This document shows positions 16,242-34,406 of a stretch of 55,221 nucleotides of DNA, piece by piece. The notes under the pieces are model-generated. The model searched no databases. It was not told the origin of the DNA and saw only the letters and a program-made list of their open reading frames with translations. The stretch is taken from positions 1-55,221 of the forward strand of contig JAGCCQ010000060.1 of the NCBI GenBank assembly GCA_017651565.1, written 5' to 3'. Source of the stretch: Bacilli bacterium (GTDB taxonomy: Bacteria; Bacillota_I; Bacilli_A; RFN20; CAG-826). A program made the translations under genes and the position numbers. Every line of letters starts with the position of its first letter. The first letter of the stretch is position 1.

Positions 16242-16838
16242 TTAATATTTATTGTCGTCAATATAAATACCAATTGGTCTACTCCTATCTTGAAAGTTGG
16301 CGAATATCTTCGTTCCATTAGGCAAAACACCATATAAATTTTGTTGACGTGTGTGACTGCGTCTAGAATTAAATAGAGCTTGACTATTAACTATTTCATC
16401 TTCTACAACTAAAGCGTTTTGGCTTCTTTTTCTAAATAGAACAACGGTGTAACCCTCGATTTCTTTAACAATAAGTTTTCTTCTCAAAACTATAATCACA
16501 GTATAAATAGCAAAGCTAACATACATGATTATCGGAAACCAAAATAAATGATCAGAACTATCTAAATAAGAATTACCAATTGCGATAATAGGAAGAAGAA
16601 TAAATGGCAAAGCCAATAAGAGTATAATTAAAAGGTCAGCTACCTTGCTTAATATTGCTTTTTTTCTCCATTTTCCTACCCACGACGAATCTCTTGGAGT
16701 TGGAGTTAATTCCTCTTTTTCTTCCTCGAACATTTTGTTGATATCATTAATTCCTTCAGTAGGAGAACCACAATTTGGGCAAAACTTCTCGTCTGCATTT
16801 ATTTGCTGCCCACAATATGGGCACTTGATTTTTTCCAT
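16242..16838 (-). CDS. Zinc-ribbon/two-TM paralogue 1
   Basis: Member of a six-gene tandem family of unknown function. The 198 residues have an N-terminal zinc ribbon (CPYCG at 6-10, CPNCG at 20-24), a linker with acidic run EEEKEELTP, the family motif SSWVGKWRKK just before the membrane, two hydrophobic segments (about 68-92 and 98-118), and the conserved C-terminal domain (GYTVVLFRKRSQNALVVEDE, VLPNGTKIF, IGIYIDD). With two membrane passes both ends should be cytoplasmic. It lies 28 bases after paralogue 2 without its own promoter element and ends the cluster at a strong terminator. Confidence 0.8.
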   Translation of the reverse strand: MEKIKCPYCGQQINADEKFCPNCGSPTEGINDINKMFEEEKEELTPTPRDSSWVGKWRKKAILSKVADLLIILLLALPFILLPIIAIGNSYLDSSDHLFWFPIIMYVSFAIYTVIIVLRRKLIVKEIEGYTVVLFRKRSQNALVVEDEIVNSQALFNSRRSHTRQQNLYGVLPNGTKIFANFQDRSRPIGIYIDDNKY

Positions 16839-16866
16839 ATGATATAAACCCTAGTTGTTAAATACT

Positions 16867-17499
16867 TTACATTTCTTTTTTCTTAAGAACTCTATCTTTT
16901 CCTACATGAATCTTAATTCCTGGGCGGAATTCAACCCAGATGTTTTTACCATTAGGAAGAGTTCCTTTTAAAGTTCTAAGATCAGAATAAAATCTATTAC
17001 TAACATATTTTTGTTCATCTAAAACTACATCATCACATACTAAAAAGTTAAAATTCCCGTATTGTGCGACAAGAATATTAAAACCATCAACTTTTGCTTG
17101 GTAAAATTTCTTTCTAGTAATTTCAAAAATAAGCACTAAGCCAATAACAGCAAAAACTATTGAAAAAATGATGCATAAACTTATTTGTGCTTTTACAAAG
17201 TCTCTCCCAAGATAGTTCCCGTCTCCATGTATGGAAGCAATAGTTGTAACTATCATAACGATTATAATTACTGAAAAAATTATGCCAGTGCCAATAGCAA
17301 GTTCAGTGTTGTGTGGAATTTGTTTATTTTTCCATTTTAAAATCCACTCATCACTTTTATTTCCTCGAATTGTAGGATCAAAATAATCCCCTGATTTAGG
17401 CTGTTCATTTTTTTCTTTTAAAACACGCCCACAGTAAGGACATTCCTCATGCTCATCTACGAGAAGAGCACCACAGTAAGGACATACAAAATCTTCCAT
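16867..17499 (-). CDS. Zinc-ribbon/two-TM paralogue 2
   Basis: The start is set at 17499 (MEDFVCPYCG), 8 bases after GGGGG, in line with the other members; 210 residues. Zinc ribbon CPYCG/CPYCG, linker with DYFDPTIRGN, motif DEWILKWKNKQI, two hydrophobic segments (about 69-92, 106-129) and the C-terminal domain VDGFNILVAQYGNFNFLVCD, DEQKYVSN, LKGTLPNGKNIWVEF. A promoter with the shared upstream element precedes it, and paralogue 1 follows in the same transcript. The basic C-terminus (VLKKKEM) differs from the others. Confidence 0.8.
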   Translation of the reverse strand: MEDFVCPYCGALLVDEHEECPYCGRVLKEKNEQPKSGDYFDPTIRGNKSDEWILKWKNKQIPHNTELAIGTGIIFSVIIIVMIVTTIASIHGDGNYLGRDFVKAQISLCIIFSIVFAVIGLVLIFEITRKKFYQAKVDGFNILVAQYGNFNFLVCDDVVLDEQKYVSNRFYSDLRTLKGTLPNGKNIWVEFRPGIKIHVGKDRVLKKKEM

Positions 17500-17541
17500 A
17501 ATAAACACCCCCTATATTCATGATTATATTAAATGATTTTT

Positions 17542-17588
17542 ATTATATAAAAATATGCTCCTGATGCGGAATCGTGGCAACAACTTTT
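17542..17588 (-). repeat. Shared promoter element, copy A
   Basis: Conserved block at 17556-17588, written on the plus strand as CCTGATGCGGAATCGTGGCA followed by ACAACTTTT. On the minus strand it lies just upstream of a TATAAT box (17542-17547) that would drive paralogues 2 and 1. Within it TGATGCGGAA and a TGATGGCAAC-like half are 10 bp apart. Confidence 0.75.
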
Positions 17589-17603
17589 ATATAGTTTAAT
17601 TTT

Positions 17604-18194
17604 TTAATGATTCTTGTCTTTTAATTCTAATATCCTAATTTCTGGATAAAACTCAGCTAAAACTTTTTCTCCATTTGGAAGAGAACCTTGCAAAGCATAA
17701 CTACGGTTACGACCTCTAATAGTTAAATACTTTTGTTCATCCAATACTTTATTATTACAAACTAAAAAGTGGTGACGTCCATATTTTGCAGCCAAAATTG
17801 TGAAACCATCTATTATTTTCACTGCAAATTTCTTTTTTGTTTCTTCTCTCCAAACAATAGCGATACCACCAACGGTAAAGAGACCTATAAGAATAACACC
17901 AATTATTTCTAATGCACTATCAACGCCATCAAAAAGAATGCTTAAAGAAACACCAGCAAAAAAAGCTACAAAATATATAATGTAGATAGCTGAAATTAAA
18001 TAATTTTCTCTAAGTTGCTTTGATTTCCATTGCTCAACCCAATCGTCACATGGCATTTCGTCAATGTTAGATTTAAAAGCTTCTTGTGACACTAACTGTT
18101 TATTGTCTTCTTTTAAAGACTCACCACAATATGGACAAACAGTATAATCGTAGAAGAATTCAGCGCCACAATATGGACATTTATTCTTTTCCAT
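17604..18194 (-). CDS. Zinc-ribbon/two-TM paralogue 3
   Basis: Of 196 residues, the first ~65 are almost identical to paralogue 4 (MEKNKCPYCGAEFFYDYTVC, then PYCGESLKEDNKQLVSQ), including the motif CDDWVEQWKSKQL. The two membrane segments (about 67-90, 94-113) differ completely from paralogue 4, and the C-terminal domain (IDGFTILAAKYGRHHFLVCN, LDEQKYLT, LQGSLPNGEKVLAEFYPEI) is again close. GGGGG lies 8 bases before the ATG. The pattern suggests recent duplication with later conversion of the ends. Confidence 0.8.
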   Translation of the reverse strand: MEKNKCPYCGAEFFYDYTVCPYCGESLKEDNKQLVSQEAFKSNIDEMPCDDWVEQWKSKQLRENYLISAIYIIYFVAFFAGVSLSILFDGVDSALEIIGVILIGLFTVGGIAIVWREETKKKFAVKIIDGFTILAAKYGRHHFLVCNNKVLDEQKYLTIRGRNRSYALQGSLPNGEKVLAEFYPEIRILELKDKNH

Positions 18195-18236
18195 AACTAA
18201 TACCCCCTATTTCCAACATTATATTAATAATTTTTT

Positions 18237-18280
18237 ATTATACAATAATGACCCTGATGCGGAATGATGGCAACAACTTT
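18237..18280 (-). repeat. Shared promoter element, copy B
   Basis: Block at 18249-18280 (plus strand TGACCCTGATGCGGAATGAT then GGCAACAACTTT), identical to copy C over its core. A TATAAT box on the minus strand (18237-18242) follows 6 bases later and would drive paralogue 3. No good -35 hexamer is present, as expected for an activator-dependent promoter. Confidence 0.75.
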
Positions 18281-18302
18281 CATATGATTTATTTTCAAAA
18301 TC

Positions 18303-18884
18303 TTAGCCTTTTATTTCAAGTATTCTAATTTCTGGATAAAACTCAGCTAAAAGTAATTGACCATTTGGAAGACGGCCTTGCAAAGAATGCATATCGCTAC
18401 CGCCTCTATGTGTAAAATACTTTTGATCATCTAATACTTTATTATCACAAACTAAAAAGTTATGATGACCATATTTGGCGGCTAAAACTGTGAAACCATC
18501 TATTTTTCTTACCGCAAATCTCTTTTTTGTGAGTTCTCGTACAACAAAGAAGCTACAAGCCAAACAAGTAATACCTATTATAAGGTCGCTTACTATTTCA
18601 AGTGTATAACCACCATCAATAGAATGGATGGAAAATACCCCAACGGCAAAAATAGATGTCAAAAGCGCAACCAATATAAACGAGAAGAAATAATTCTCTC
18701 CAAGCTGTTTTGATTTCCATTGCTCAACCCAACCGTCACATGGCATTTCGTCAATGTTAGATTTAAAAGTTTCTTGTGACACTAACTGTTTATTGTCTTC
18801 TTTTAAAGACTCACCACAATATGGACAAACAGTATAATCGTAGAAGAATTCAGCGCCACAATATGGACATTTAATTTTCTCCAT
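18303..18884 (-). CDS. Zinc-ribbon/two-TM paralogue 4
   Basis: The 193 residues carry a zinc ribbon (CPYCG at 6-10 and 20-24), motif CDGWVEQWKSKQL, two hydrophobic segments (about 66-89, 95-115) and the C-terminal domain IDGFTVLAAKYGHHNFLVCD, LDDQKYFTHRG, LQGRLPNGQLLLAEFYPEI. Its first ~65 codons match paralogue 3 nearly base for base. GGGGGG lies 8 bases before the ATG and the shared element with TATAAA lies upstream. Function unknown; likely membrane-bound and cytoplasm-facing. Confidence 0.8.
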   Translation of the reverse strand: MEKIKCPYCGAEFFYDYTVCPYCGESLKEDNKQLVSQETFKSNIDEMPCDGWVEQWKSKQLGENYFFSFILVALLTSIFAVGVFSIHSIDGGYTLEIVSDLIIGITCLACSFFVVRELTKKRFAVRKIDGFTVLAAKYGHHNFLVCDNKVLDDQKYFTHRGGSDMHSLQGRLPNGQLLLAEFYPEIRILEIKG

Positions 18885-30734: not shown

Positions 30735-33700
30735 TTATGCTCTCTTTTTCTTTTTCATTAAGTAGAATGCACTTAATGCACCACCACCTAATGTGCAAAC
30801 TAAGAATAAGATAATTAATGAACTATCATCGTCAGCAGAGAGAACATCACCACTTACGCCTGTTTTTCTTAATGATGCGAATGGTTCGTCATTACCATAA
30901 GTGAATACTTGACCATTTGCAGTAGCCCAGTTATTTAATCTAGCACGTGCAGGTGCAAAATCATCTGCATATTGGAATACATTCTTTTCAGCATCACTTA
31001 ATTCTGAGTATGCAATCTTTAAGAACGCATAGTTTTCTGAACATTCTGGAGTTTCATTATCACCAGCATAATAGTCATCATTCATCTTGAGCCAATCATT
31101 TGTGAATGAAACAACATTATCTTTAACAGCGGAGCCATCCATCTTGAATAATGCAATATGCGAAATATTTGCTGAATAACCACCATAAGTAGCAAACCTA
31201 GGATCGTTACCACTATTGTAGTTATAAGCTAATACTCTATCTGTTCCACTTAAAGTAGCAGACATAACATTAGATGAGAAACTAAAGCTCCACCAAGAAG
31301 CATCGCCAAATGATGCAGAGTCATTAAGATGGTTATCACCATTATTTGTATATCCAGTTAAATATTTAGAATTGCCTAAGTCATAGAAAGCGTATTGACC
31401 TTCAGCATTCTTTAATAAAGTAAATCTAGATGCACCAACCAATGTAGGAGCTGTATCAGCAACTCTAGTTGCGTCAGTGCTCATAACGCTAGAAGCTTCG
31501 ACTGCGTTACGATAAGTTTTTGCACCACTAGTATCAGCAGTTTCGCCCATTAATCTATATGTAGGATTTGTTGTATCAACACCAACAACATAAGTTGCAC
31601 CAACTTCTAAATCATCAGCACTAGTTACTTTTGTAAATCCTGAGAATACATTAACAGAAATTGGATAGCTTCCTGTTGCAATGCTATTATCCTCGTTAAC
31701 ATAGCTAACTGTAACTTCAGTATTTTCACTAGTAAGAGTAGCACCGTTTTCAGGTGAGAATGTACATTGAGAAACTTCAATATCGTATTCATTGTTACCG
31801 CTATCATATGCTTTAACAATGACACCGCTAACATCCAAATTATCACCTACAAAGTATGATGTCTTAACACCATTAGTTGTTGTATCAATTGATAAAGAAA
31901 CCATAGTAGGTGCATAAATGTTCATGCCAGTAATTTCAACATCATCATAATTTTGATATGAAACAATTAAGACAGCTTCTGAAGTAACAATACTTGTTTC
32001 AAGAGTCCAAGTAACACCAGTAGTAATTGGATCATGAGTTCCATCTGTATAATCAATTTGTGCTACAAAGCCTGCATCTGCTGCTGCTTGAGCATCAAAA
32101 GTAGTACCTTTTAAAACATTTTTAATTGCGTTAGTTGTATCAACTGAGAAACCTGAAATTTCTTTTGCGGTTTCAACTTGAATCATTGCTGTTCTGTTAC
32201 CAGCATCAGCACTTCCATAAGTTCTCCAGTCAGAGCCATTGTAACTACAAAGATATCTATTGTTATCATCACTATCTTTACCAACAAAATTGTAAGAACC
32301 ATATAATTCAAGCGGCTCATTATTAACTGTCTTTGTGACTTTAGTATCATCAACTTTCCATTGATAATCTTTTCCGTTAGCACCCCAAGAAACAGTATTT
32401 CCTGATCCAGGATGATACAAACCTTTAGTTCCTTCTAAATTAGTGATTGTATAAGTATCATCACCAACAAGAGTAAATAAGAAAATTGAAGCACTGCCCT
32501 TTGCACTTACAGCAGCTGGTTTTGCACTTGCACCAGCATTATCAATATTCATGTAAAGGGGATCGGATTCAGCAGAAGTTTGCTCAAAAATATATTTTCT
32601 ACCACTTAAATGATAAGTATCTTTAATTCCAGCATCTTCAACACTAACTTCAAAAGTTAAATACTCCGTTTCTCCTTTGAATGTTGCATAAACTTCTAAA
32701 GTTTTTGTTCCTTCAGTCACGCCCATATCAGCTGGAGTGTTATAGTTGTAACTCCAAGTAGACTTACTTGTAACATCTTCTAAAGATTCATCCATATAAA
32801 TAGCAGTGACTGTAATTCCAGAAGGATTCCATGCTTCATTGGTTAAGTACGAAGTTTTTGTAAGAGAACCAGAAACCATAATACAATCAAGTTCTTTTGC
32901 ACTTGGATCAACTAAGTTAACAAGTTGATTTCCTTGAATAAACTCATAAACATCGCCATATTTAGTTAAATTACCATGAAGAATTACAATATCCCCTACT
33001 TTAATCGAGTCTTCAGAATTAATAGGGAAGCCTTCAGTGCCTACAGTTCTATAACCACGTAATTGTTGGCTTGTTGTTGTTCCATCATCGCTAATATCGA
33101 AAGTAATATTTTGATAACCAGAATCATAAGCGGTAACAATTTTAGAAACAATGCCTTTAGCATATACATCGTTAACCCCATCGTTTGTATCGATTGCCAA
33201 TTTTGCATCAGCAACTGTATATGGATCTCCTGAAGTACCTGAATGAGTTAAAACACCGAAGTTTACAGTTCCCGCAGAAGAATCTGTATAGTTTGTTCCG
33301 TCTCCAATAGCAGTGACTGAAACATTATGCGTAATTCCTGCTTCAAGAGTTCCGAGAGCATAAGGCGAAGTAGCATTGTGCACAACACTTCCTCCATCAA
33401 GAACTAAGTCATAGCTCTCTGCGTGTTCAACATCAGCCCAAGTAATTTGATTATTTGTTTTATCATATACAGGTGAAGGTGTTGCAAGTTTAGTAGAATC
33501 ACCAGTTGATACAGGAAGTAGCCAAACATTCTTTTGTCCGCTTGCATAAGACCCAAAGTTTAAACTATTACCGCTATTCTTTTGTAAAACATAATTATTA
33601 ACTTTTAGTTGAATCAAACCGCTAACATTTGAAGCAGTCCATGTATCTTCTTCTGCTTGAATATTAACCTTTCCATTGTTTTTGGAAGAAGCTAAAGTCA

Positions 33701-34037
33701 TATAATTTCCATTTGATAATTGTAATTTCCAGGAAGCTCCAGAACCAATGAATGTGAAAATTGTTGCATCATCCATATCGGTTGTTGAAGTTCCAGCAAC
33801 TCCTGTTTTTACATCTAGAGAAGCAAGTTGTAATAAATAATCAGTGCTAGAAACTGTTGCACCAATATAATAATTCGTTCCACTCTCTATTTTTGTATAA
33901 TCAGTAACTTTAGTTCCGGTAATAGCAGTAGCTCTAGCCATTTGGCTTGATGATTTACTGCTGCAACTAAAAGAAAAGCCAAAGCATAAAGCTAGGCCTA
34001 ATGTAATTCCAGAAACTCTTTTAAATAATTTACTCAT
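30735..34037 (-). CDS. Large anchored surface protein with OB and Ig-like domains
   Basis: The start at 34037 (MSKLFKRVSGITLGLALCFG) follows AAGGAGG by 8 bases and gives 1101 residues (1100 by usual count). After a signal peptide come a ricin/lectin-like strand repeat region (about 35-170), a fibronectin III-like part (ATPSPVYDKTNNQITWADVE), an OB-type domain (VYAKGIVSKIVTAYDSGYQN to VGDIVILHGNLTKYGDVYEF), bacterial Ig-like domains near LTNEAWNPSGITVTAIYMDE and YFVGDNLDVSGVIVKAYD, and repeated cofactor-free strand modules. It ends with a membrane helix LIILFLVCTLGGGALSAFYL and KKKKRA, without LPxTG. Probably an adhesin or surface hydrolase scaffold. A structured leader RNA precedes it. Confidence 0.75.
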   Translation of the reverse strand: MSKLFKRVSGITLGLALCFGFSFSCSSKSSSQMARATAITGTKVTDYTKIESGTNYYIGATVSSTDYLLQLASLDVKTGVAGTSTTDMDDATIFTFIGSGASWKLQLSNGNYMTLASSKNNGKVNIQAEEDTWTASNVSGLIQLKVNNYVLQKNSGNSLNFGSYASGQKNVWLLPVSTGDSTKLATPSPVYDKTNNQITWADVEHAESYDLVLDGGSVVHNATSPYALGTLEAGITHNVSVTAIGDGTNYTDSSAGTVNFGVLTHSGTSGDPYTVADAKLAIDTNDGVNDVYAKGIVSKIVTAYDSGYQNITFDISDDGTTTSQQLRGYRTVGTEGFPINSEDSIKVGDIVILHGNLTKYGDVYEFIQGNQLVNLVDPSAKELDCIMVSGSLTKTSYLTNEAWNPSGITVTAIYMDESLEDVTSKSTWSYNYNTPADMGVTEGTKTLEVYATFKGETEYLTFEVSVEDAGIKDTYHLSGRKYIFEQTSAESDPLYMNIDNAGASAKPAAVSAKGSASIFLFTLVGDDTYTITNLEGTKGLYHPGSGNTVSWGANGKDYQWKVDDTKVTKTVNNEPLELYGSYNFVGKDSDDNNRYLCSYNGSDWRTYGSADAGNRTAMIQVETAKEISGFSVDTTNAIKNVLKGTTFDAQAAADAGFVAQIDYTDGTHDPITTGVTWTLETSIVTSEAVLIVSYQNYDDVEITGMNIYAPTMVSLSIDTTTNGVKTSYFVGDNLDVSGVIVKAYDSGNNEYDIEVSQCTFSPENGATLTSENTEVTVSYVNEDNSIATGSYPISVNVFSGFTKVTSADDLEVGATYVVGVDTTNPTYRLMGETADTSGAKTYRNAVEASSVMSTDATRVADTAPTLVGASRFTLLKNAEGQYAFYDLGNSKYLTGYTNNGDNHLNDSASFGDASWWSFSFSSNVMSATLSGTDRVLAYNYNSGNDPRFATYGGYSANISHIALFKMDGSAVKDNVVSFTNDWLKMNDDYYAGDNETPECSENYAFLKIAYSELSDAEKNVFQYADDFAPARARLNNWATANGQVFTYGNDEPFASLRKTGVSGDVLSADDDSSLIILFLVCTLGGGALSAFYLMKKKKRA

Positions 34038-34080: not shown

Positions 34081-34116
34081 TTAAAATAAAACACAGAAGA
34101 CTCAATGCCTCTGTGT
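34081..34116 (-). terminator. Attenuator terminator of the leader RNA
   Basis: Stem ACACAGA (34116-34110) / TCTGTGT (34097-34091), then TTTATTTTAA. Its 5' arm shares bases 34110-34112 with the closing helix and 34114-34116 with the neighbouring stem, so those structures exclude the terminator. Confidence 0.7.
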
Positions 34117-34243
34117 CTTAGTTCAGATAGCTTTCACTATCTTTTCTAAGACATAGCGTGGTGATACGTCCACCACCCAGAGAGACCTCTAACGTAATTA
34201 TGATACTCAATAAGTATCTAATTAAATAGAGGCATGTATGCCT
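34091..34243 (-). ncRNA. Structured leader RNA, riboswitch-like, class unidentified
   Basis: Minus-strand RNA in the 371-base gap before the surface-protein gene. An 8-bp closing helix (ATGCCTCT at 34235-34228 with AGAGGCAT at 34112-34105) encloses three hairpins: GATACT/AGTATC (34202-34218), GTGGTG/CACCAC with loop GACGTAT (34158-34176) and a two-part stem TGTCTTAG/CTAAGACA plus AGATAG/CTATCT (34114-34153). The 3' strand of the closing helix overlaps the 5' arm of a terminator. It matches none of the riboswitch consensuses I know. Confidence 0.6.
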
Positions 34244-34378: not shown

Positions 34379-34406
34379 CAAAAAGAAGGAAAAATTCCTT
34401 CTCTTT
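34379..34406 (-). terminator. Terminator of the 5'-nucleotidase-like gene
   Basis: Stem AGAAGGAA/TTCCTTCT with a short A/T loop, followed by TTTTT on the minus strand. Between it and the leader RNA (34244-34378) the sequence is AT-rich; I see only a possible weak promoter for the RNA (TAATAT near 34250-34260). Confidence 0.8.

Follow-up and report, generated by a model that had tools for sequence, protein, structure and literature searches.

Riboswitches of the SAM-I, lysine, and guanine xpt class repress their genes from terminator/antiterminator platforms whose default is antitermination, and the adenine pbuE and guanidine-I riboswitches are activating ones. Uncharacterised premature-terminator attenuators were treated by Naville and Gautheret (PMC2965389), who describe such sensors as diverse and rapidly evolving. 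The leader RNA described below, found in the window (the whole 55,221-nt stretch of DNA that was analysed), is a genuine, structured RNA conserved between two species, and most likely represents a new orphan attenuator whose type of mechanism is already known. The attenuator reading is well supported on comparative data that are thin, as they consist of two sequences.

The leader occupies 34,244–34,083 of the minus strand, from its 5′ strand to the end of a U-tract, and is backed by its folding z-score, by the block conserved in a homologue, and by the scores of a model (R1) built on the two copies. It precedes, on the same strand, the gene of an exported surface protein (30,735–34,037, minus strand; 1,100 aa plus stop, ATG at 34,037, RBS GGAGG), which has a signal peptide, a weak Ig-like Big_3 match just below the cut-off, and a C-terminal membrane anchor. 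The intrinsic terminator (34,116–34,083), read directly, comprises the hairpin ACACAGAGGC-AUUGA-G-U-CUUCUGUGU (34,116–34,091) and the U-tract UUUUAUUUU (34,090–34,083), and the end of its stem lies 53 nt from the ATG; the original prediction had the same arrangement with slightly different figures (54 nt and 1,101 residues). Its perfect 8-bp closing helix around 131 bases was also confirmed by direct reading: the 5′ arm of P1, AUGCCUCU (34,235–34,228), is fully complementary to the 3′ arm, AGAGGCAU (34,112–34,105), which lies within the 5′ arm and loop of the terminator. Sequence and calculated folds agree that the antiterminator and the terminator are mutually exclusive, as had been claimed. 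Inside the helix, the three strong hairpins reported earlier were found, including the one with the GTGGTG/CACCAC stem, together with a small fourth that had been missed. P2 (UAAUUAGAUACUU/GAGUAUC-A-UAAUUA, 34,224–34,195) and P4 (GUGGUGG-ACGUA-UCACCAC, 34,176–34,158) are present in both of the folds described below, the small P3 (AGAG-GUCU-CUCU, 34,190–34,179) belongs to the ON fold, and P5b (AGAUAG/CUAUCU, 34,142–34,125) has a variable loop on a stem kept in the homologue.

Forced-fold and partition calculations revealed that the 5′ strand of the leader, AAGGCAUACAUGCCUCUA, has two sets of partners. The early set consists of UAGAGGU (34,191–34,185) and UAUGUCUU (34,155–34,148), giving a three-way junction (P0′/P1′-P2/P4, the OFF fold), in which AAGGCAUA (34,244–34,237) pairs with UAUGUCUU as P0′, GCCUCUA (34,233–34,227) pairs with UAGAGGU as P1′, and CUCUCU of the P3 region serves as a junction strand. 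The late set consists of AGAGGCAU and GUCUU (34,101–34,097), both in the terminator: here P1, the 5′ arm of which overlaps that of P1′, is joined by P0, formed between AAGGC of AAGGCAUA and GUCUU, and is aided by P5a, in which UGUCUUAG (34,153–34,146), overlapping the 3′ arm of P0′, pairs with CUAAGACA (34,121–34,114), overlapping the base of the terminator stem. At full length, these two complete global folds differ by 0.9 kcal/mol in the window and by 2.2 kcal/mol in the homologue; the energies come from equilibrium calculations that include neither pseudoknots nor Mg2+ nor real kinetics. When folding at equilibrium was followed along the transcript, the early junction was complete at 99 nt (P ~1.0) and was replaced at 129–141 nt, first by P5a and then by P1, the probability of which was 1.0 at 147 nt and ~1.0 at the decision point in both species without ligand. 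The calculated order is thus P0′/P1′, P5a, P1, and finally the terminator.

These folds suggest the following course of events. The first ~97 nt would fold as RNA polymerase proceeds into the three-way junction of P0′ (AAGGCAUA:UAUGUCUU), P1′/P2, and P4. Unaided, P5a (UGUCUUAG:CUAAGACA) would displace P0′, upon which the 5′ strand would shift to the 5′ arm of the terminator (P1 with P0), so that no terminator could form and the surface gene would be read. If a signal stabilised the early junction, the 5′ strand would stay occupied and the terminator arm free, and transcription would stop before the gene. Since P1 reaches a probability of ~1.0 while the terminator is still incomplete, antitermination, with the gene ON, is probably the default in the absence of such a signal, which would act as an OFF switch. 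The barriers for leaving the OFF junction calculated with Findpath are low (3–5 kcal/mol), suggesting that the junction needs help to persist. Judging from this anatomy, the signal would most likely be a small molecule, with a protein as a possible alternative. On balance, we consider it somewhat probable that the leader acts in cis as a transcription attenuator, built like a riboswitch, in which a signal holding the early junction switches the surface gene OFF.

The original prediction was of an RNA that turns its gene on. It overlooked the other full set of pairings (AAGGCAUA:UAUGUCUU and GCCUCUA:UAGAGGU), which arises earlier and leaves the terminator free; as the default computed without a signal is antitermination, an OFF switch is favoured over that polarity. 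An ON switch would treat the whole 131-nt region as an aptamer closed by P1, which the ligand stabilises against the terminator. The position of the 3′ arm of P1 within the 5′ arm of the terminator is the usual layout of such switches, and the full-length terminator state is slightly favoured in the window without ligand (0.92), which speaks for an ON model. However, P1 is calculated to be formed already at the decision point without ligand in both species, which leaves little for a ligand to do, and in the homologue it is the antiterminated fold that wins at full length (terminator state 0.18). The earlier interpretation is partly supported, and an ON switch appears rather unlikely.

Several controls showed that these features are seldom matched by chance. 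The fold of the leader (−60.8 kcal/mol) lies far below those of shuffled sequences (−35.7 ± 4.0 kcal/mol, z = −6.25), none of 200 of which folded equally well. Among shuffles that kept the terminator, a perfect 8-bp helix joining the 5′ arm and loop of the terminator to the first 40 nt occurred in 0.2%, such a helix from anywhere upstream in 0.8%, and occlusion of the arm at the decision point combined with weak final termination in 1.6% (window) or 0.1% (homologue).

Within the genus, a single homologue was found, in another species at the same locus (G001:C102, L010/L046), between glycerol-3-phosphate dehydrogenase/DUF6273 genes and a 5′-nucleotidase-like gene, where an additional sigma-factor gene has been inserted upstream. 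In a hand alignment of the two sequences, 134 of 148 bases of the RNA core are kept. The 14 substitutions sit in P4, P2, the loop of P5b, and the extreme 5′ strand, while P1 (8/8 pairs) and the terminator hairpin are identical to the letter, and P5a, the four-pair core of P3, and the 3′ arm of P1′ are likewise invariant; the homologue has a U-tract, too. The ON fold retains 45 of its 46 pairs (P = 0.013 for random placement of the same substitutions), the exception being a G-C pair of P2 that became A-A, leaving 12 of 13 pairs of that hairpin. In the 5′ strand, two substitutions on one side of a pair leave the pairing of the OFF fold intact and, by reading, that of the ON fold too. The covarying pairs that the original prediction had looked to homologues for were found in P4, where two G-C pairs changed to A-U by double compensatory substitutions (P = 0.009 by random placement, two sequences), which on two rows may be taken as support rather than proof; a two-row shuffle control was not significant (144/500). 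P1 and P1′ are invariant and show no covariation and, with only two sequences, the closing helix is thereby neither backed nor contradicted. By comparison, identity is 57% at fourfold-degenerate sites of the adjacent dehydrogenase gene and 31% for the controlled protein. The signal-peptide codons adjoining the leader are about as conserved at the nucleotide level as the leader itself, thus part of the similarity may reflect recent shared ancestry or recombination of a 5′ block.

The invariant 5′ arm of P1 coincides with the start of a mini-ORF (34,235–34,218, minus strand; AUG CCU CUA UUU AAU UAG, MPLFN), raising the alternative that a translating ribosome decides whether AUGCCUCU can pair. 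In the homologue, its start, length, and stop are kept despite two base changes (MPLFS, stop UAG replaced by UAA), and SD-like bases (AAGG/AGGA) precede it at a spacing of 5 nt. Nevertheless, it is just five codons long, conservation sets in right at the SD-like bases, which may leave a ribosome no room, the P0/P0′ pairing accounts for the same bases, and the compensation in P4 and the remaining structure would stay unexplained. Ribosome-controlled attenuation through this five-codon ORF is therefore a live rival, albeit a very improbable one. A longer ORF within the leader (TTG..TAA, 30 aa) was rejected as coding, as substitutions fall at all codon positions and, by reading, its frame is shifted in the homologue.

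The counterpart of the surface-protein gene in the homologue genome (L046 2,389–5,829, minus strand) encodes a protein 70% identical over the first 44 residues (signal peptide) and ~31% identical overall; the protein behind the fixed leader thus appears to be fast-evolving or swapped. A protein search of the genome contigs with the downstream gene detected no relative. A third genome of the genus (G002) has neither the RNA nor the surface gene, and an unrelated putative lipoprotein of 605 residues is encoded at the locus (L083 1,836–3,653, minus strand). RNA and gene are therefore both present or both absent across three species and, as the gene upstream differs in the homologue, the conserved unit is the RNA plus the surface gene. 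In the homologue, the gene directly upstream of the RNA is divergent (L046 6,156–7,658, plus strand) and encodes a sigma-70 region 2 domain with a long C-terminal extension; the window genome lacks a close counterpart, the best match there being 32% identical over the sigma part. Just past the 5′-nucleotidase-like gene upstream of the leader in the window there is a hairpin, AGAAGGAAAAATTCCTTCT (34,384–34,402, plus strand), with a T-run on the minus strand, which probably terminates the upstream transcript, so the leader would need its own promoter. Elsewhere in the window, four consecutive proteins of ~200 residues with N-terminal zinc ribbons, apparently tandem paralogues, are encoded at 16,242–18,884 (minus strand).

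No promoter was identified for the leader, and none that is evidently conserved was seen in the linker at 34,082–34,055, which is less conserved than the RNA. This bears on the possibility of a stand-alone small RNA that ends at its own terminator, with the surface gene read from a separate promoter between 34,083 and 34,060. In sequence, a ~160-nt RNA ending in a terminator would look no different, and a promoter is confirmed for neither arrangement; the state of the linker and the joint presence or absence of RNA and gene speak against it, and ends that disrupt their own terminator would be odd for such an RNA, hence we regard it as distinctly unlikely. S-layer genes are known to be preceded by stable 5′-UTR structures and the product here is a surface protein, which would suit a leader responding to a protein or to temperature, or a 5′-UTR merely stabilising the mRNA of a highly expressed surface protein. 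A UTR that only stabilised the mRNA would have no use for a conserved terminator with a U-tract and a conserved competing strand, and we consider this group of explanations unlikely.

Searching the window with the covariance models of Rfam 15 (4,227 families) yielded no match at the gathering score and none credible at E up to 5, in line with the claim that the RNA follows no known pattern. Model R1 scored 196 and 186 bits on its own two source copies and found nothing credible beyond them in overlapping sets of 224 genomes of the family, 279 of the order, 395 of the class, and 392 of the phylum, which together cover about 1,000 related genomes, and the junction-only model R2 found nothing credible among the family and class genomes. 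Two matches of 16 bits (G194) and 21 bits (G180) were judged to be chance, the latter being a near-palindromic terminator-like hairpin between two genes. A spaced pattern searched among 84,980 GTDB species retrieved the homologue only, the contig that carries the motif being JAILIF010000047.1 (‘Bacilli bacterium isolate RUI143’). There was no match of the leader in phage and plasmid collections or of the spaced motif in viral contigs, where three matches of a short motif were discarded as none was scored by the model. A second copy of the leader was found neither in the window genome (74% complete) nor in the homologue genome, on which ground an antigenic-variation cassette was rejected, and literature searches returned no description of such a leader. 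With a single locus in two species of the same genus, the distribution does not spread over multiple genes or lineages from which a common ligand could be read. That the element founds a new riboswitch class, with the three-way junction (34,244–34,148) as the aptamer of a candidate small-molecule sensor and a 5′-strand swap controlling a fast-evolving surface protein, is put forward as a tentative possibility.

If the attenuator is real, it is an orphan without an entry among the Rfam families, in which the switch has stayed fixed while the body of the surface protein changes fast; expression of a surface protein in uncultured Bacilli would then be under signal-dependent RNA control, exerted by a small, testable bistable RNA. 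As it is confined to one locus in one genus, its reach is limited and there is little from which to guess the ligand.

Among the systems compared, T-box leaders share the exchange of terminator and antiterminator, but the TGGNACC sequence was not found in this leader, which also has neither an Rfam match nor an amino-acid gene, and a T-box reading was rejected. The uncharacterised attenuators of Naville and Gautheret (PMC2965389) similarly pair a same-orientation terminator in the leader with an antiterminator as its alternative; the main text of that paper lacks the terms surface protein, cell wall, and lipoprotein. Like the pbuE and guanidine-I riboswitches, the leader has a closing helix some bases of which also belong to the 5′ arm of the terminator, whereas its calculated unaided state is already antiterminated at the decision point. 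Unlike the SAM-I, lysine, and xpt riboswitches, it has no sequence or covariance-model match, is confined to one genus, and precedes a surface-protein gene that gives no clue to a ligand. Nevertheless, it resembles these repressing riboswitches in having an early, aptamer-like junction at the 5′ end, the closing-helix 3′ strand of which is shared with the antiterminator, in the overlap of the antiterminator with the 5′ arm of the terminator, and in its default, which by calculation is antitermination.
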